From Acorus gramineus (lineage: Eukaryota > Streptophyta > Magnoliopsida > Acorales > Acoraceae): a stretch of 64,000 nt of DNA. How positions within the stretch are numbered: the stretch's first letter is position 1; every line of letters begins with the position of its first letter. Position numbers and translations under genes: made by a program. The stretch lies in contig CM060850.1 of the NCBI GenBank assembly GCA_030737835.1, forward strand, positions 14,452,068-14,516,067. The letters run 5' to 3'. Below the pieces are notes generated by a model. That model ran no database searches and was not told the DNA's origin. It saw nothing but the letters and a program-made list of their open reading frames with translations. This document shows, piece by piece, positions 2,174 to 59,863 of this stretch.

Positions 2174-3406
2174 GTAGCCTTATCTATGCCTTTGATATTA
2201 TTGGTAGACTTAGTCTTGTCATTAACAACCACGGGAGCTGCAACGGGCTTCTTACAACATCGAGCTTCATCATGGCCAAAATTTTGGCAAAATTGGCAAG
2301 CAGAAGGTTTCCAATTGTAATCCACACGGAATTTCTCCATAAGGCCAGGAGCGAGTTCCACTAAAATGGAGTCCGGAAGAGTAGTTGAAGCCTCAACTTC
2401 GATGCAAAGTCGGGCAAAGGTCATCATACTACATCATAGGGTGGTAGTGTCCATAAACAAGGGGGGTACCAATGAGACTACCAATACGGCTCAGGCAGTC
2501 CAAGTTCCAAAGATTGAGAGGGAGATTCGGGAATCTCACCCAAATGGGGATGCTACTTAGTCGCTCTTGCTCCATGCGAAGCTCTGGTGACCACTTCCTC
2601 AAGATAAAAGGGCGATGCTCCATGGTCCAGGGGCCTCCTTCAAGAACGAAGTTGCAATCTTCCTCCAAGTCAAACTTGATCGTGAAGAAACCATTTCCAT
2701 GCAGGAAAAGTTGAAAGTCGGCCTTCGGTTTCCATTTCTTTTTGAGAAACTGAAGGAATGGTGTATAGACTGGAGATTTGCCAATGATATACCCAACAAT
2801 CACATTTTCCCAATGCTGAATAAGGGGCTTGAATGAGACTGGGTTGAGAACTACAATCGATTCTTTGTCGTCCACCCGAGGAGGGATGAATGACAGGGAG
2901 CGTTCATTAGAAAGGGAGGAGGAAGGGTTAGTGAAGAGGCTTTTCCAAGAGGAGACTTGCTGACCCACAACAGCAGGGGCAAACTTGGGTAGAAAACGGG
3001 AACACTTGGGGGGTGGAGGGTTGCGTTCAGGACGCACTTGAGGAGCACATGGGGGGTTTAAAGGGGGGGGAAGAGGAGGTGGGGGTGGCAAGTCAAAGGG
3101 ACTGGCCATTAGTGGTGGATGGGATTGGACTTGTGGAGGGTGGGTTTTGTCAAGTGAAAGACTTGGAGAAACAGAGGCATCAGGGGAAATTGAAGGGGTA
3201 ATGGATGAGGTTGAAGATGAAGGTGGAACTGCTATCTGAGAAGCTCCAGGAACCTTCATATGAAAGGCCTTGAAAATGCTATCAATGGTCCCCCCCTTTG
3301 GACGAGGGGGAACCCCAGATGGAAATGGTGAGGGGGAGGAGGGCATACCTGGTGAAGGGGTCGGGAGAGCCACCGTTGGAGGCGGGGGAGGCACTTGCAC
3401 CGGCAT
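2174..3406 (-). pseudogene. LINE (non-LTR retrotransposon) ORF1-like pseudogene, DUF4283 plus zinc knuckle
   Basis: Read on the minus strand this encodes a Pro/Ser-rich N-terminus, then a DUF4283-like domain (landmarks VGYIIGKSP, GPWTMEHRPFILRKW, IPIWVRFPNLPLNLW) and a CCHC knuckle CQFCQNFGHDEARC of the CX2CX4HX4C type. This arrangement is typical of the nucleic-acid-binding ORF1 of plant LINEs. The frame is broken near 2430-2465: after IGTPL it shifts by one base and then meets a stop before resuming at MMTFARLC. The C-terminal side stops at the LTR boundary at 2173. No endonuclease or reverse transcriptase is adjacent. The family call is firm and the element is dead. Confidence 0.85.
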
Positions 3407-3479
3407 GGGGGCTGCCGCCCACGAAGAAGACCCGCCAAAAAGCTGCTCACTGGTTCAATCCCCAACTATTGCAACCCTC

Positions 3480-11220: not shown

Positions 11221-13187
11221 ATGGGGGCTCAAACAGTGAGGATCATTGTCCTTCTCTTCTTGACAACATTGGTAGCCCATGCCCAACCACAGTGTGCAGA
11301 TGAGGCAGGGGGCGCACTCTGCCCTGATGGCCTCTGCTGCAGTCCATGGGGTTACTGCGGTTCCACCCCTGAATACTGTGGTGGATCAGGCGGCGGAGGC
11401 GATGGTGACAGCGGTGTAGGTTCTCACATAACCCGGTCGTTGTTCGAGGAGATGCTGAAGCACCGCAACGATGTGGCTTGCCCCGCCAAGGGATTCTACA
11501 CCTACGACGATTTTGTGGCCTCCGCGAACTCGTTCGAAGGGTTCGCGACGACCGGTGATGAGGATACGCGTAAGAGGGAGATTGCGGCTTTTCTTGCTCA
11601 GACTTCCCATCAAACCACTGGTATGTATACTTGCATGATTTTTTTGCATTTTGGGGATTTGATGAAAATGAGGTGAAAATAATAAAATACTGAAACAATA
11701 GAGAGAAAGAGAATGAGTGAGATGAATTGATAGACGAAGCCCTGCTACGACGCTTTGAAGCATTATTCAGATCCTTCTTGTACATAAGTCATGAACCGAA
11801 CTACTCCCATGATCCAGTAAGCCTACACAGAGTGCACCTCAGGTGGAATGAGAAACTGGCTTAGAACTCTATCATCACAAAAACACTTGAACTACTGGAA
11901 TAATAGGACTTCAAGGCTATGGGGCTGATTGAAATTCTTGTATAAATTTTGAGATATACAGTAATAGATGCCTAATAAAAAGGCTTAAAAAATAACATGT
12001 CTTCTTATTATTTAGATCTATTATCACTGGATTATGACTCATAAGCATATACAGGTGGATGGGAGGGTGCGGCGGATGGAACCGATGCGTGGGGTTACTG
12101 TTTCAAAGAAGAAGTAAAGCACACTGATAATTGCCAACTGGGTGTGGAATATCGATGCCCACCCGGGCAGCAATACTATGGCCGAGGACCCATGCAAATC
12201 TCTTAGTGAGTGTCTCTGTGTGTTATATTAAAATAATTCAATTCTATTATTTATTTTAGTGAGTAACATTATTGTTTTGGAAAAAATTCAAATAACCTCA
12301 TGTAAATTATCTGAAATTCATATAATTCCTTCACTTTTTCTGAAGTCCATATAATCCCCTGAAATCACTTATGTAACTCCAAATAACCTCGTGTTAAACT
12401 TTTGTTCAGAGATGACGAATATTATGCGAGTATTCCATTTGGTTAACCTTGATTGAAAACACAGAATACCAAAAAACGTTTACAATGTGTTGAAATACGG
12501 AAGACCTTCAATAAATGATGGTTTTACCCCTCTTATAGATGACTTGTCTCATTTTTAACATATTTTAGAGGTGTTTTTTTGGTATACAATGTTTTAACCT
12601 AGGATTAACTAAACATAATATTCGCATAATATTTTTTATATGTCAACGGAAATTTAACTTAGTGGGCTATTTAGATTTAAATATGTGTTTCAAGGAGTTG
12701 TATGAACTTCAGGAAAATTAAAGGGGTTATATGGATTAGGGATAGTTTACAAGGGGTGATATGATTTTTTCCTAATATTTTCATCAGCAACTACAATTAC
12801 GGTCGAGCCGGGAAGTACTTAGGAATTGACCTCCTCAACAACCCCGGCTTGGTCGCGACCAACGGGATCATATCATTCGGCACAGCCTTCTGGTTCTGGA
12901 TGACGCCTCAATCGCCTAAGCCATCGTGCCACGACGTCATGACCGGGAATTGGAAGCCATCGAAAGTCGATGTCGCGGCGAGGCGTTTGCCAGGTTTAGG
13001 CCTCACCACCAACATCATCAACGGAGGGCGCGAGTGTGGGCGCGGAACCGATGCGCGAGTCGAAGATCGCATCGGATTCTACAAGAGGTACTGTGACTTG
13101 CTCGGTGTGAGCTACGGTGAGAACCTGGAGTGCAACAACATGAGGCCTTACTCTTTCATATTGGAGGCCGTCCAATCCATGACATGA
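11221..13187 (+). CDS. Chitinase gene 1: class I-like GH19 chitinase with catalytic Glu replaced by Gln
   Basis: Exons 11221-11620, 12055-12205 and 12788-13187 (400+151+400 nt) join in frame with GT-AG introns to give 316 residues. Domains in order: signal peptide (about 1-21, cut before QPQC), hevein-type chitin-binding domain (22-53), a Gly/Asp linker (54-68), the GH19 domain (about 69-300) and a hydrophobic C-terminal tail that could be a vacuolar signal. In GH19 enzymes the general acid is the Glu of SHETTGGW (Glu67 of barley chitinase). Here it is SHQTTGGW with Gln131, codon CAA at 11611-11613. The second acidic residue (Glu153) and the Gln181, Ser183 and Asn187 positions of [14 protein letters not shown] are kept. 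The hevein domain has six of eight cysteines, lacking the last pair. Intron 2 holds a MITE. The protein is probably a secreted or vacuolar chitin-binding protein with little or no hydrolase activity. Start, frame and splice sites agree with both paralogues. Confidence 0.93.
12279..12772. mobile_element. MITE with ~90-bp inverted ends in intron 2 of chitinase gene 1
   Basis: The left end starts GGAAAAAATTCAAATAACCT and the right end, read in reverse, starts GGAAAAAATCATATCACCCC. The two ends stay alignable for about 90 bp, including CTGAAGTCCATATAATCCCC against CTGAAGTTCATACAACTCCT. Intron 2 of gene 2 is only 82 bp and lacks this block, while the sequence either side (GAGTAACATT and the CAG acceptor) matches. 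The insertion is therefore about 490 bp. No transposase is encoded. Confidence 0.85.
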
Positions 13188-29713: not shown

Positions 29714-30234
29714 TGTTGAGATTATGTCTCGATTCGTTGTATCACATCGGATGGCCATTATGAAACCATATTAGGTTGGACACCTAATGAGTTGAATATT
29801 ATTTAAGATTTGATCTTAATTAATATTTAAAGTGAATCTCCTAAAATAGGAAACAATATTTGTTTGTTAATTAGGAGAGTGAATATCTCCTAATTAATGG
29901 AACAATATTTGTTTGTTAATTGAGAGATTACTTGGGGAGGAAGTTATTTATCTCTATAAATATCTTCTAGGGTTTCATGGCAAGGCAAGGCAATGTATAC
30001 AATGTAGAGATCCTAAGGGAAGGTTGAGAGGGTTCTAAGAGAGGGTAACTCTATGAGAGAGTTTGTGAGTCTCTTAATGTATCTCAACTATCAAAGTGGA
30101 TTATCTGTTTTTGCCCCGTGGATGTAGGCCTAGGCTGAACCACGTATATCTTGTGTTCTTCGCGTGATGTGATATTTCGTTCTTGTGTTCGATCTCGTGT
30201 TTGTTGGTGGCTTCCGCGAATAACCTTCCCAACA
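29714..30234 (+). repeat. 5' LTR of the TRIM-like element
   Basis: It begins TGTTGAGATTATGTC and ends CTTCCCAACA. It differs from the 3' LTR at roughly a dozen positions, about half of them in the first 25 bases. Confidence 0.92.
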
Positions 30235-30235
30235 G

Positions 30236-30247
30236 TGGTATCAGAGC
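30236..30247 (+). other. Primer binding site (initiator Met-tRNA type)
   Basis: TGGTATCAGAGC lies two bases after the 5' LTR. It matches the standard plant copia primer site complementary to the 3' end of initiator methionine tRNA. Confidence 0.88.
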
Positions 30248-31158
30248 TCCAGGTTCCGACCTAGGAGGACGAGATTTGAAGAACGATGATCAATGACGAC
30301 ACGGGTCGATGAATCCATACCATCGACGGATGTATTGTTGGAAACTCCAACAACGGTGTGTCGTACATGGTTTCATGCGAAGAAGAAGAAAAAAAAATCA
30401 TGCAAGGTTGCATGGAGCTTTCGGTGGTGGATGAGGCATATCTATTCAGGTGTGCAATGATAATACCAATTTGTTGCAGGTCCAAGATCCACCGAGAAGC
30501 AGACGTGCAAAGACGCTCGGGGTGCAAAGTTCGCAGTGACACGCGGAGGCACGCGGGCGAATCACTTGAAGCGTGGGTGTGGAGTTCATACAGAAGAAGA
30601 TGGAACAGTGCAACACGGTCTAAGGCGTTCTGAACCGGGTATGGGAGGAGCAGCCCCATGTGGTTCGGTTAAAAGAGCGAGTCTAGCCATCTCGTGAGCG
30701 CGTGTGTGGCATGTTCAAGGTGGAGGTAAGATCCAGATCTTCTTCGGAGATCCACAAGGAGCGTCGAATAGATGCATGTGAAATCAAGTCATGGCATTGA
30801 CTTAAGGATGTGCGATTATTGAGTCTCACTCAGGGGTTGATCCATGATAAGGTGAGCGCAGGCTTATGGATCCAACAAAATTGGGCGGTGCAGACGTCCG
30901 GAGGAAGAAGTTCCTAAAATCCATTCAAGGTGGAGTTCTGCGGAGCGGGTCTAGTGCACAAAAAGACTCGTGATAGCCACTTGAAGGCTGGTGAGGCTCA
31001 AGGAAGTCGGAGACCACTTGATTGCAGCTGGAGGTGCATGGTTGCTCGCGCGGTCATGCTTCAGGGACGACATGGAGCAAGGTGGAGACATCAACGGAAA
31101 ATCTTCTAAGGGGTTCGAGGAAGTCTGAGCTTATCGGATACGAGCCAAGGTGGAGATT

Positions 31159-31680
31159 TTTTGGGATTATGTCACAATCCGGTGTATCACATCGGATGGC
31201 CATTATGAAACCATATTAGGTTGGACACCTAATGAGTTGAATATTATTTAAGATTTGATCTTAATTAATATTTAAAGTGAATCTCCTAAAATAGGAAACA
31301 ATATTTATTTGTTAATTAGGAGAGTGAATATCTCCTAATTAATGGGAACAATATTTGTTTGTTAATTGAGAGATTACTTGGGGAGGAAGTTATTTATCTC
31401 TATAAATATCTTCTAGGGTTTCATGGCAAGGCAAGGCAATGTATACAATGTAGAGATCCTAAGGGAAGGTTGAGAGGGTTATAAGAGAGGGTAACTTTAT
31501 GAGAGAGTTTGTGAGTCTCTTAATGTATCTCAACTATCAAAGTGGATTATCTGTTTTTGCCCCGTGGATGTAGGCCTAGGCCGAACCACGTATATCTTGT
31601 GTTCTTCGCGTGATGTGATATTTCGTTCTTGTGTTCGATCTCGTGTTTGTTGGTGGCTTCCGCGAATAACCTTCCCAACA
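31159..31680 (+). repeat. 3' LTR of the TRIM-like element
   Basis: It begins TTTTGGGATTATGTC, with the second base of the expected TG changed to T, and ends CTTCCCAACA. It is otherwise nearly identical to the 5' LTR. Confidence 0.9.
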
Positions 31681-31685
31681 GAAAC

Positions 31686-32262: not shown

Positions 32263-33775
32263 ATGAGGACTCACACAATGAGGATCGTTGTGTTTCTCTT
32301 GTTGACAACATTGGTTGCCAATGCCCAAACACAATGTGGAAAACAGAACGGGGGCGCACTCTGCCCTGGTGACCTCTGCTGCAGCCAGTGGGGTTACTGC
32401 GGTACCACCGATGACTACTGTGGTACCGGCTGCCAGAGCCAGTGCGGAGGCGGTGACGATGGAGACGACGATGGCGACGGCGGCGCTGTGGGTTCTCTCA
32501 TAAGCCGGTCGTTGTTCGAGGAGATGCTGAAGCACCGCAACGATGTGGCTTGCCTCGCCAGGGGATTCTACACCTATGATGATTTCGTGGCCTCCGCGAA
32601 TTCCTTTGATGGGTTCGCGACGACTGGTGATGAAGATACGCGTAAGAGGGAGATCGCGGCTTTTCTTGCTCAGACTTCCCATGAAACCACAGGTAAGTAG
32701 TACATATTTTGCAGCCTCATACATTATGATATTACAGTATATAATACACTATATATCATAGTATATGAAGATTTTTTTTTTAAGAAAAAAATATACTATT
32801 GTATCTCAGTACATACTTCATTTCGTATAACAGTATGTATTTCAATGGGCGAGTGTATATTATCTTAGAGAAAGAAAAACTATAGACTCAAACAGGACCG
32901 CAAACGAGACTGGACATACCATTTTCCTGTTGTTAATTGTTCAACTATTTTATTCTTTCGAATAAAAAAATTTGACCAATTTTGTGACGGTTGTTAATGT
33001 AGATGAATCACAAAAATGATAACATCACTATAAAGATGTGATAGAAAGACATGTCATTTTATGATTAGTCTTTTTGTAATTAGCCTAGACCACCGATTTG
33101 ATTAGATCCTTTGCTATATAATGACTCATGTTTGTATAGGTGGATGGGAGACTGCGCCAGACGGACCCTACGCGTGGGGTTACTGTTTCAAGGAAGAAAT
33201 AAATCCCGCAAGCGATTACTGTGTACCGAGTGTAGAATATCCATGCGTGCCCGGGCAAAAATACTATGGCCGAGGACCCATACAAATCTCCTAGTGAGTG
33301 TGTATGTGTGTGTCATCTGTTATTTGTTATCTTTTCAGTGAGTAACATTTATATTTCTTGATTTATTTTGATCAGCAACTACAATTACGGTCAAGCCGGA
33401 AAGTACTTAGGAATCGACCTCCTCAGCAACCCGGGCTTGGTCGTGGCCAATGGATCCATATCATTCGACACGGCGTTCTGGTTCTGGATGACAACTCAAT
33501 TGCCTAAGCCATCGTGCCACGATGTCATGACAGGGAAGTGGAAACCATCGAATGCTGATGTCGCGGCGGGGCGTTTGGAGGGGTTCGGTCTCACCACCAA
33601 CATCATCAATGGAGGGGTCGAGTGCGGGACCGGACCCAATATGTTTACTAATAACCGCATCGGATTCTACAAGAGGTACTGCGACTTGCTCGGTGTGAGC
33701 TATGGTGACAATTTGGACTGTGACAACATGAGACCTTATTCTCTCATATTGGAGGCAGTCCAGGATATGAAATGA
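32263..33775 (+). CDS. Chitinase gene 2: class I GH19 chitinase, active site intact
   Basis: Exons 32263-32692, 33140-33293 and 33376-33775 (430+154+400 nt) give 327 residues. The start at 32263 is preferred over upstream in-frame ATGs because it follows the TATA box, begins a signal peptide and aligns with gene 1. Domains: signal peptide (1-21), hevein domain with all eight cysteines (22-61), an acidic Gly/Asp linker (62-76) and GH19 (about 78-310), then a tail ending LEAVQDMK that may direct it to the vacuole. Catalytic Glu141 (SHETTGGW) and Glu163 (GYCFKEE) are present, as are Gln192, Ser194 and Asn198 of [14 protein letters not shown]. It should hydrolyse beta-1,4-GlcNAc chains of fungal or arthropod chitin by an inverting mechanism. 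Intron 1 (447 bp) holds an AT-rich MITE-like insert and intron 2 is 82 bp. It is the only one of the three with a complete active site. Confidence 0.95.
32718..32865 (+). mobile_element. AT-rich MITE-like repeat in intron 1 of chitinase gene 2
   Basis: The word ATATACTATTGTATCTCAGT with flanking TATACTTCAT and AGTATATGAAG recurs at about 37185-37355 (same strand), at about 60765-60905 (reverse) and more weakly at about 36476-36600 (reverse). I could not fix its ends. Confidence 0.6.
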
Positions 33776-57537: not shown

Positions 57538-58728
57538 TCATTTCATGTCCTGAACAGCCTTGGATGTGAAAGAGTAAGGCTTGGCTTTTTCGCAATCCAA
57601 ATTGTCACCGTAGCTCACACCAAGCATGTCGCAGTACCTCTTGTAGTATCCAATGCGGTCCTCTGCATCCGCATTAGGTCCTTGCCCGCACTCAGCAACA
57701 CCATTGATGATGTTTGTGGTCGCTCCGAACCCCGCCAACCGCCCGGCCTCCTCATCCTCCTCCGACGGCGTCCAACCCCCTGTGATGGCGTCGTGGCATG
57801 ACGGCATAGGTGGATTAGGCGTCATCCAGTACCAGAAGGCTGTGCCGAACGATATTTTCCCTTTCTTCGCGACCAACTCCGGGTGGTTGAGGAGGTCGAC
57901 TCCTAAGGCCTCCCCCGCCTTACCGTACATGATGTTGCTGATCAAAATAGAGAAATTATTTTAGTATATCATATTTTCATCGATTTTTGTCAGTACTCAA
58001 AGGTCTATTTAAAAAAAAAATTAAAAATTAATTAGTTGCTGATCAAAATCGAGAAATTAATTAGTATATTAGATTCTTATCAATTTTTAAATGAGAAACT
58101 AATAAAGGTCTATTTAAGAAAAAATTTAGCAATTTGCCCCGCCTGACCGAACATGTAGGTTTTTTTTTTTTTAAATGATAGTTGAACCTTGTGGTCAAGC
58201 TGGTAGGCTATCTCTATCTGTTTGTCTAAGTCCCACATAAAATTCTTTTAAATTTTGTCAAACAAAAAACGTGATTTTTAACACAGCGTTAAGACTCAAG
58301 TCCAAGACCTACCTTTAACACAAATAGATCATAAACCATACACGTAGTTACTGATCAAAATTGAGAAATTAATTAGTATATCAGATTTTCATCAATTTTT
58401 ATCAGTACTCAATGAGAAACTGATAAAAGTCTATTTAAGAGAAATTTTAGACATTTGTGTAACTTGTTTGTTTGGGTGTGATGAATTGAATTAAGTTGAA
58501 TGATTTAATTATTGACACCCACTATTTGATTTTCATGGGTCCTCGGCCATAGTATTGCTTATTGGGTGCGCAGGGATATTCATCACTCGGTTCGCATTCA
58601 TAGGCGTTGCTTCGTTCTTCCTTCTTACAGTAACCCCACGTGTAAGGTTCTTCTCGCCATCCACCTGTGCATAATATATATATAAATAAACCATTCATCA
58701 AAAACATGTAAAACAAAACAACAACAAT

Positions 58729-58770
<42 letters not shown>

Positions 58771-59863
58771 AAAAGAAGATAAACCAAACTGATAATGGTG
58801 AATCGTGTTCTGAGGATCAGTTCAGCATTTATTTTATTTTCATTTTGCTATAACATCCAGAAAAATTATTTTTGAAATCCTTCGATTCCAATCCTCATTC
58901 ATTTTTAGATATATATTTAAACTAATTTTTTTCATTTCATAGAATCTACTAGAACCAGATTCTTGTGAAAGAAGAATTCACCTTCTTAATTGGCCAGATT
59001 TATCAAACTGGCATTAAGAGTCAATTTAACATTAATTCTCATTCACGTTCTACTAAAACACTTTGGAAAATTATGTTTAGAATTATTTATTCATGTGCTA
59101 ATTGCTGGATATCTAGGAAGAATGTAACAAAAAATAAAGGTTATAAAAAAAAACAATTTTTTGAGGTGTTATGTAGAAGAAGGACAATGAAAATGAACGT
59201 CAAACTCGCATGATTAATTAACAACCTCATACATATATGTATTAGGAATAAAGAGTTTGATTGGGTTAATGCAATAAGATTTGATGTAGTTAACAAATTC
59301 TGGTGAGATTTAAATCTTTCTGTTTATGAAAAAATAATATTAAGAAATGTAGTCTCTTGTGTATTTACATTTCTCTCCGTTCTCTTTTCTTCTCTCCATT
59401 GTATTATCTTTTATTTTAGATTTTAAATTTTCAACAAGACCTACTTACCAGTGGTTTGATGTGATGTCTGAGCAAGAAAAGCCGCGATCTCCCTCTTTCG
59501 TGTATCCTCATCACCGGTCGTCGCGAACCCTTCGAACGAGTTCCCGGAGACCAGGAAATCATCGTATTTGTAAAAGCCCCTGGCGGGGCAAATCGGGTCG
59601 TCACGGTGCTTCAACATTTCGTTGAACAATGACCGGTTGACGAGTGATCCGACTGCGCCGAAGCACGGGCCGCTCTGGCAGCCCGGACCGCAGTAAGCGT
59701 CATTGGTGCCGCAGAAACCCCATTGACTGCAGCAGAGGATATGAGAAGGGCAGAGTGCACCATTGGCTTCTCTTCCACATACGGGTGGTTCAGAGGAAAC
59801 CAATATTGTGGTTGTTGTTAAGAAGAGAAAGATAGTGAGACTTATCAGTGTGTGAGATTTCAT
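57538..59863 (-). CDS. Chitinase gene 3: class I-like GH19 protein with four changed active-site positions
   Basis: Exons 59863-59449, 58664-58523 and 57937-57538 (415+142+400 nt) give 318 residues. The ATG at 59863 is chosen over one 45 nt upstream because it starts a clean signal peptide (about 1-24). A hevein domain with eight cysteines follows (25-67), then almost no linker, then the GH19 domain (about 71-300) and a tail ending SKAVQDMK. Relative to barley numbering, Glu67 is Gln136 (SHQTTGGW), Gln118 is Lys183, Ser120 is Lys185 and Asn124 is Met189 ([14 protein letters not shown]). Only the second acid, Glu155, is kept. Exon 2 is 9-12 nt shorter than in the paralogues, trimming a substrate loop. 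Frame, splice sites and cysteines are intact, so the gene looks maintained but not hydrolytic. The donor of intron 2 is GTGGGT. Intron 2 holds duplicated acceptor copies. It is likely a chitin-binding pseudoenzyme. Confidence 0.88.
58735..58766. repeat. (AT)n microsatellite in intron 1 of chitinase gene 3
   Basis: An uninterrupted AT/TA dinucleotide run lies within the 784-bp first intron. Confidence 0.9.

Follow-up and report, generated by a model that had tools for sequence, protein, structure and literature searches.

A chitinase gene that reads glutamine where its family carries the general acid may be decaying, or may encode a protein kept for something other than cutting chitin. This is the question raised by gene 1 of the window, a 64,000-nucleotide stretch of the Acorus gramineus genome with three GH19 genes. 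All three have a Pfam match to the hevein domain (PF00187) followed by one to the GH19 domain (PF00182), and the general acid, Glu67 (residue numbers are those of barley, by offset from Glu67), is present in gene 2 and absent in genes 1 and 3, where Gln takes its place.

Gene 1 and the cluster around it

The features that we refer to are the following.

11221-11620, 12055-12205 and 12788-13187, + strand: exons of gene 1, class I GH19 gene (from translation and splice sites)
11221..11620, + strand: gene 1 exon 1, with a hydrophobic N-terminus, the 6-Cys hevein domain and the first GH19 portion (PF00187, PF00182)
11290..11385, + strand: gene 1 hevein (CBM18) domain without Cys7-Cys8 (Pfam stretch 24-55, Cys positions)
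11611..11613, + strand: gene 1 codon 131, CAA (Gln), replacing the GH19 general acid Glu67
12055..12205, + strand: gene 1 exon 2, holding the retained Glu89 equivalent, residue 153
12276..12775, no strand: foldback (inverted-repeat) element of about 500 bp, most of gene 1 intron 2
12788..13187, + strand: gene 1 exon 3, through the stop
32263..33775, + strand: gene 2, class I chitinase, SHETTGG (exons 32263-32692, 33140-33293 and 33376-33775; from translation)
57538..59863, - strand: gene 3, class I chitinase-like, SHQTTGG (exons 59863-59449, 58664-58523 and 57937-57538)
C4:14710017-14712710 (locus L012:1518-4211): gene 4, splice sites and frame intact

An earlier note on this DNA had reported that gene 1 reads SHQTTGG, and tcccatcaaaccact is what we read at the position it gave; residue 131 is Gln (CAA, 11611-11613) in an intact frame of 316 amino acids, with no internal stops and with consensus splice sites. 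A sequencing error, which that note had named as a way for its idea to fail, is ruled out, since Gln is also found in a second genomic copy (gene 1b) and in the A. calamus orthologue P0001 (92% identity). By eye, the N-terminus of gene 1 is signal-peptide-like, and the C-terminal tails resemble the vacuolar sorting extensions of class I chitinases; according to an excerpt of PMC4100196, vacuolar sorting requires no specific motif. Around gene 1, neither a bacterial promoter scan nor a search for tandem repeats was informative.

Gene 1 retains Glu89, Gln118, Ser120, Tyr123, Asn124, Gln162, Lys165, Asn199, Glu203 and Arg215 (Asn124 and Asn199 being cleft residues of GH19), together with all 8 catalytic-domain Cys. 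The earlier statement that the gene keeps the second Glu and the Gln, Ser and Asn of the cleft is thus borne out by Glu89, Gln118, Ser120, Asn124 and Asn199. In excerpts of the literature, Glu67 is the general acid, Glu89 the base, Ser120 positions the water and Gln118 is accessory (PMC2976769), and Glu203 and Arg215 are coordinated with Glu67 (PMC4100196). The hevein domain of gene 1 has 6 Cys, the Cys7-Cys8 pair being missing, against 8 in genes 2 and 3; a hevein without this pair is described in part of PMC5374622 as the 6C-hevein-like form.

From the coordinates, a second copy of the cluster (L009, L010 and L011) lies 157-173 kb downstream, and is either a segmental duplication or an unpurged second haplotype. 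Over exons and introns together, genes 1b, 2b and 3b match their counterparts at 98.8%, 98.7% and 97.6%; in coding sequence, gene 1b shows one silent base difference and no amino-acid difference, gene 2b 3 silent and 3 replacement changes, and gene 3b 6 of each. Upstream of both gene-1 copies are L013 and L014, pseudogenes of the same array in which pieces of GH19 exons 2-3 carry stops. When 12 GH19 loci of the genome were scanned for the catalytic motif, it was found in 8, with Gln in the 1b and 3b loci and Glu in six; the limits of the pattern may explain the 4 loci without a match.

Gene 2, the Glu-type paralogue about 19 kb from gene 1, is identical to the A. gramineus protein P0004 (P0013 and P0038 are further proteins of this species), and its intron 2 is just 82 bp, against the element-filled intron 2 of gene 1. 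A pair of 521-bp direct repeats (29716-31681), 98% identical and with starts 1.4 kb apart, ends some 580 bp upstream of gene 2 and has the appearance of an LTR element that is short and young. Elsewhere in the window, the ORF at 2432-3454 (- strand) has a DUF4283 domain, presumably linked to retroelements, and nine other ORFs scanned alongside it gave no Pfam match.

Glutamine at the general-acid position

The earlier note had proposed a survey of this residue across GH19. In the 242 proteins read at this position, of which three database searches supplied 239 and the window the other three, it is Glu in 233, Gln in 7, Lys in 1 and Leu in 1. Each search contributed its best 120 listed hits (of 1552, 1563 and 618), and since a Gln-bearing query was used in all three, any bias would be towards too many Gln proteins. 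Acorus supplies six of the seven: genes 1 and 3, P0001, P0038 (the gene 3b protein), P0121 and P0122. The seventh is a Castanea model of 223 residues (P0225), which stands beside two other natural losses at the catalytic site, Lys in Syzygium P0161 and Leu in Dillenia P0090. We also observed SHETTGG in both P0133 and P0134, although the database names them "probable inactive chitinase-like protein LaCIC"; among the open-licence papers listed for LaCIC, none was evidently on chitinases.

The earlier note made no mention of the Gln of gene 3, that is, of recurrence within the cluster. That one isosteric change recurs in related Acorus genes is of greater interest than the single case, and is what is new here and worth following. 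An initial tree that still contained the catalytic column failed to settle how genes 1, 2 and 3 branch, and it grouped the Gln rows with weak support (76/18). Masking that column made genes 1 and 2 sisters with moderate support (bootstrap/SH-aLRT 90/82 and 83/76); SH-aLRT/bootstrap for this pairing was 100/78 under a codon model and only 44.6/50 under GTR. Among the three window genes, 3' flank similarity is found between genes 1 and 2 only.

Gene 4 keeps Glu67 (GAA), although its Gln118 has become His and its Asn124 Met, and by alignment its Glu89 has become Thr, with a Glu one residue earlier. Its A. calamus orthologue, P0121 (292 of 329 residues identical, support 100/99), has Gln. Because gene 4 has Glu and P0121 Gln, the tree requires at least three Glu/Gln switches, and these seem, with P0121 being one public protein model, to have occurred within one Acorus clade. 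A single Gln clade without reversion, which was not rejected before gene 4 was added (p-AU 0.244), was rejected once it was included (p-AU 1.8e-35).

Three losses and one loss followed by two reversions have equal parsimony cost, three changes either way. Genes 2 and 4 might therefore have regained Glu from a Gln ancestor, a historical alternative that is compatible with the function we favour below for gene 1. We consider it quite unlikely: two exact back-changes would be needed, and gene 2 deviates at only 1 of 90 conserved columns (see below), as expected for a continuously active enzyme. By our own count, changing one base of GAA can give 7 different replacements, of which Gln is one, so that three independent arrivals at Gln, one of them taken from the protein model P0121, would be unlikely by chance. 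One might speculate, and we do so tentatively, that the Glu-to-Gln change arose at least three times (in the gene 1, gene 3 and A. calamus gene-4 lineages) because selection favoured chitin-gripping proteins in which the hydrogen bonding of the cleft was kept, the substitution being the one engineered into the rye enzyme for crystallography to hold oligosaccharide.

Gene conversion was also considered, by a run test that compared the three genes of the window pair by pair; it gave a tract between genes 1 and 3 (p 0.009), a tract between genes 1 and 2 (p 0.03) and nothing between genes 2 and 3 (p 0.90). The tract shared by genes 1 and 3 stops upstream of codon 131, and conversion carrying Gln along with it was rejected. 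Differences between genes 1 and 3 flank codon 131 within about 15 bases, and P0121 has Q63H, four residues upstream of the site, in common with gene 4 only among the rows compared. Gln could at most have spread through a very short conversion tract.

Selection and erosion

Pairwise omega between genes 1 and 2 ranges from 0.31 to 0.38 for the GH19 domain, and from 0.38 to 0.45 when all sites are taken. On a tree of eight genes, with the catalytic codon left out, GH19 omega on the gene-1 stem is 0.31 against a background of 0.30, and setting it to 1 costs 2dlnL 9.8; the stems of genes 3, 4 and 2 have omegas of 0.37, 0.29 and 0.27. A three-gene test gave a gene-1 omega of 0.33 in GH19 (omega = 1 costs 2dlnL 6.2) and of 0.48 over all sites, against 0.35 for gene 2, omega = 1 being weakly rejected (2dlnL 4.5). 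The gene-1 stem is under purifying selection, as an average over a branch much of which may predate the Glu-to-Gln change. The branch dN/dS for which the earlier note had asked is thus well below the value of 1 expected under relaxation, with the reservation that part of this constraint may be older than the change itself.

The more recent interval can be viewed through the A. calamus orthologue. Of the 316 residues of gene 1, 25 are different in P0001 (in GH19, 15 of 247), a divergence that cannot be told from the 19 of 309 aligned residues that differ in the Glu-type pair P0013-P0008 (Fisher p 0.44). With the genome-wide A. gramineus-A. calamus Ks peak of 0.058, given in an excerpt of PMC10282084, a gene free of selection should show 33.4 GH19 replacements, against the 15 observed (p 0.0003); at a local Ks of 0.03, neutrality for GH19 replacements is not rejected.

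A comparison of gene 1 with gene 1b, at 1 difference in 951 coding sites and 36 in 2366 non-coding sites (p 7.6e-5), was read as constraint, but this reading was withdrawn, as the 37 differences are clumped: the 5' flank holds 20, and the foldback element 15, all but one of the 16 that are intronic. Over 813 bases of 3' flank there are 0, and over the 434 of intron 1 just 1. A near-zero omega on the gene-1 tip, which rests on the same comparison, was set aside with it. The corresponding coding against non-coding test on the copies of genes 2 and 3 gave no signal (p 1.0 each).

Erosion was scored at 90 columns conserved at 97% or more in a background of 226 rows, after removal of 5 Acorus-clade rows and 8 others (three natural non-Glu, four fused or partial models and one synthetic ancestor); Glu67 is found in 226 of 226 background rows, partly by choice, since the natural non-Glu rows had been removed beforehand. 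Gene 1 deviates at 6 of these columns (G-48A, A37S, E67Q, P76A, P104R and D235E), of which A37S is common to the entire Acorus clade. The earlier claim that only the catalytic acid had been lost is therefore too narrow: five other conserved columns have changed, and the last hevein Cys pair is gone. Gene 2 deviates at 1 column, gene 3 at 12 (2 of them gaps) and gene 4 at 15 (1 gap), where the background has a mean of 0.8 (sd 1.6, maximum 11). With P76A and P104R in gene 1, and W72R in addition in A. calamus P0001, the rim of the cleft is changing. Gene 3, which lacks Gln118, Ser120, Asn124 and Lys165, has a cleft more eroded than that of gene 1 and appears to be a more advanced pseudo-chitinase. 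Its A. calamus orthologue model, P0122, lacks the portion encoded by exon 2 and the N-terminus, through either annotation error or decay.

This gradation, from gene 2 through gene 1 to genes 3 and 4, is what would be expected if a redundant tandem cluster were losing catalysis under relaxed selection, with gene 1 near the beginning, genes 3 and 4 further along and the stop-bearing fragments L013 and L014 at the end; W72R in A. calamus points the same way. However, genes 1, 3 and 4 all have intact frames and splice sites, their stem omegas are close to that of gene 2, and omega = 1 is rejected for gene 1. The intact frame, the second copy with its identical protein sequence, the Gln of A. calamus and the stem omega below 1 argue against simple decay of gene 1, which we regard as a minority possibility, though one to be taken seriously. 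The earlier proposal of a selected chitin-binding or decoy role rather than decay is thus supported as to selection, by the intact gene, its second copy, its orthologue and omega below 1; for a decoy, no specific evidence was found.

Putative chitin binding and known relatives

With its catalytic Glu absent and its GH19 fold intact, as modelled on P0001, gene 1 falls among the chitinase-like proteins (CLPs). We think it probable, from the sequence, that its product is a GlcNAc-binding protein of the HbCLP1 kind, hydrolysis having been lost while cleft and hevein domain grip chitin. This class I GH19 protein, secreted or vacuolar, would have lost hydrolysis when Gln at position 67 replaced the general acid; with its fold, second Glu, substrate-cleft residues and 6-Cys hevein domain retained, the cleft and the hevein module would hold chitin or GlcNAc oligomers uncut, and the protein could serve defence through antifungal binding or chitin sensing. 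Activity loss, kept binding, localisation and defence use are all inferred, cutting lost and binding kept being the likeliest state. A barley chitinase mutant with the same Glu-to-Gln change is said, in the earlier note, to have no activity.

The AlphaFold model, which is of P0001 and not of gene 1, has a mean pLDDT of 81.5 (low at 56-63 and 306-316), and its best matches are plant GH19 chitinases, with TM of about 0.8-0.9 by target length. That gene 1 binds chitin without hydrolysing it is made plausible by two structure titles. PDB 4j0l is a W72A/E67Q rye chitinase, of sequence SHQTTGGA, complexed with two (GlcNAc)4, and PDB 1t0w is a truncated hevein of 32 residues with a triacetyl-glucosamine ligand, which matches the hevein part of the model over just 30 columns and at a Foldseek E of only 0.035.

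The rye complex also bears on the idea that gene 1 is still a weak enzyme, another residue donating the proton or the Gln being deamidated. Glu89 and Glu203 are indeed still there, but the site is Glu in 233 of the 242 proteins and the E67Q form was crystallised, by its title, with uncut (GlcNAc)4; we find continued activity the least credible of the alternatives. Scarcely more probable is that the dead copy is a decoy or sink that absorbs chitin fragments, or fungal proteases or inhibitors aimed at chitinases, thereby shielding gene 2. The little-changed conserved columns and the nearby Glu-type paralogue would suit such a role, which from sequence is indistinguishable from plain chitin binding.

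Inactive plant GH19 proteins are already known, and what the chitin-binding reading of gene 1 adds is a Gln-bearing variant of chitinase-like proteins. We found no paper in the open-licence literature with SHQTTGG, or with E67Q and chitinase, and the word chitinase has 0 occurrences in six Acorus genome or gene-family papers (PMC7720719, PMC10281966, PMC10282084, PMC11082295, PMC9300462 and PMC10743480); on that literature alone, the natural Gln series is unreported. The Gln series, a Glu paralogue about 19 kb off and an orthologue that differs between species make a ready set for tests of cutting against gripping, and the Acorus set could show whether the conversion of enzyme to lectin in plant defence takes a preferred mutational route.

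Among known systems, the rye seed chitinase of 4j0l has the identical Glu-to-Gln change in the same motif as gene 1, and its W72A/E67Q finds a natural parallel in the E67Q and W72R of A. calamus P0001, both being altered at Trp72. The rye protein is, however, engineered and was crystallised as a chain of 244 residues without the hevein domain, whereas gene 1 is natural and has one. In Drosera it is the other Glu that was changed, and E167Q left the enzyme completely inactive, according to an excerpt of PMC12667207. The 6C-hevein-like peptides and Hevein-32 (1t0w, and PMC5374622 in part) have a hevein fold without the fourth disulfide, like gene 1, in which, unlike in those peptides, the 6-Cys hevein is fused to a GH19 domain.

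HbCLP1 of Hevea brasiliensis (4mst; Martinez-Caballero 2014, as cited in excerpts of PMC12667207 and PMC12355970) is, as gene 1, a chitinase-like protein of class I-type GH19 without the catalytic Glu, and is 65% identical to the GH19 domain of the P0001 model; it reads SHATTGG, with Ala where gene 1 has Gln. The inactive plant groups of the GH19ED resource, as far as the available text of PMC8547705 describes them, are CHIT 4 (class VI), with Ala at the site, and CHIT 3 (class VII), with mostly Lys or a deletion, and that paper's section on inactive groups, in the same text, does not mention Gln. As with gene 1, their members are GH19 proteins of plants; they are described as inactive, by prediction or by experiment, and as lectins or regulators. 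By these descriptions the Gln of gene 1, and of the Acorus series, fits neither group; the nearest rows to the Acorus clade in which the change lies, in trees built without CHIT 3 and CHIT 4 rows, are class I proteins of the Glu type.
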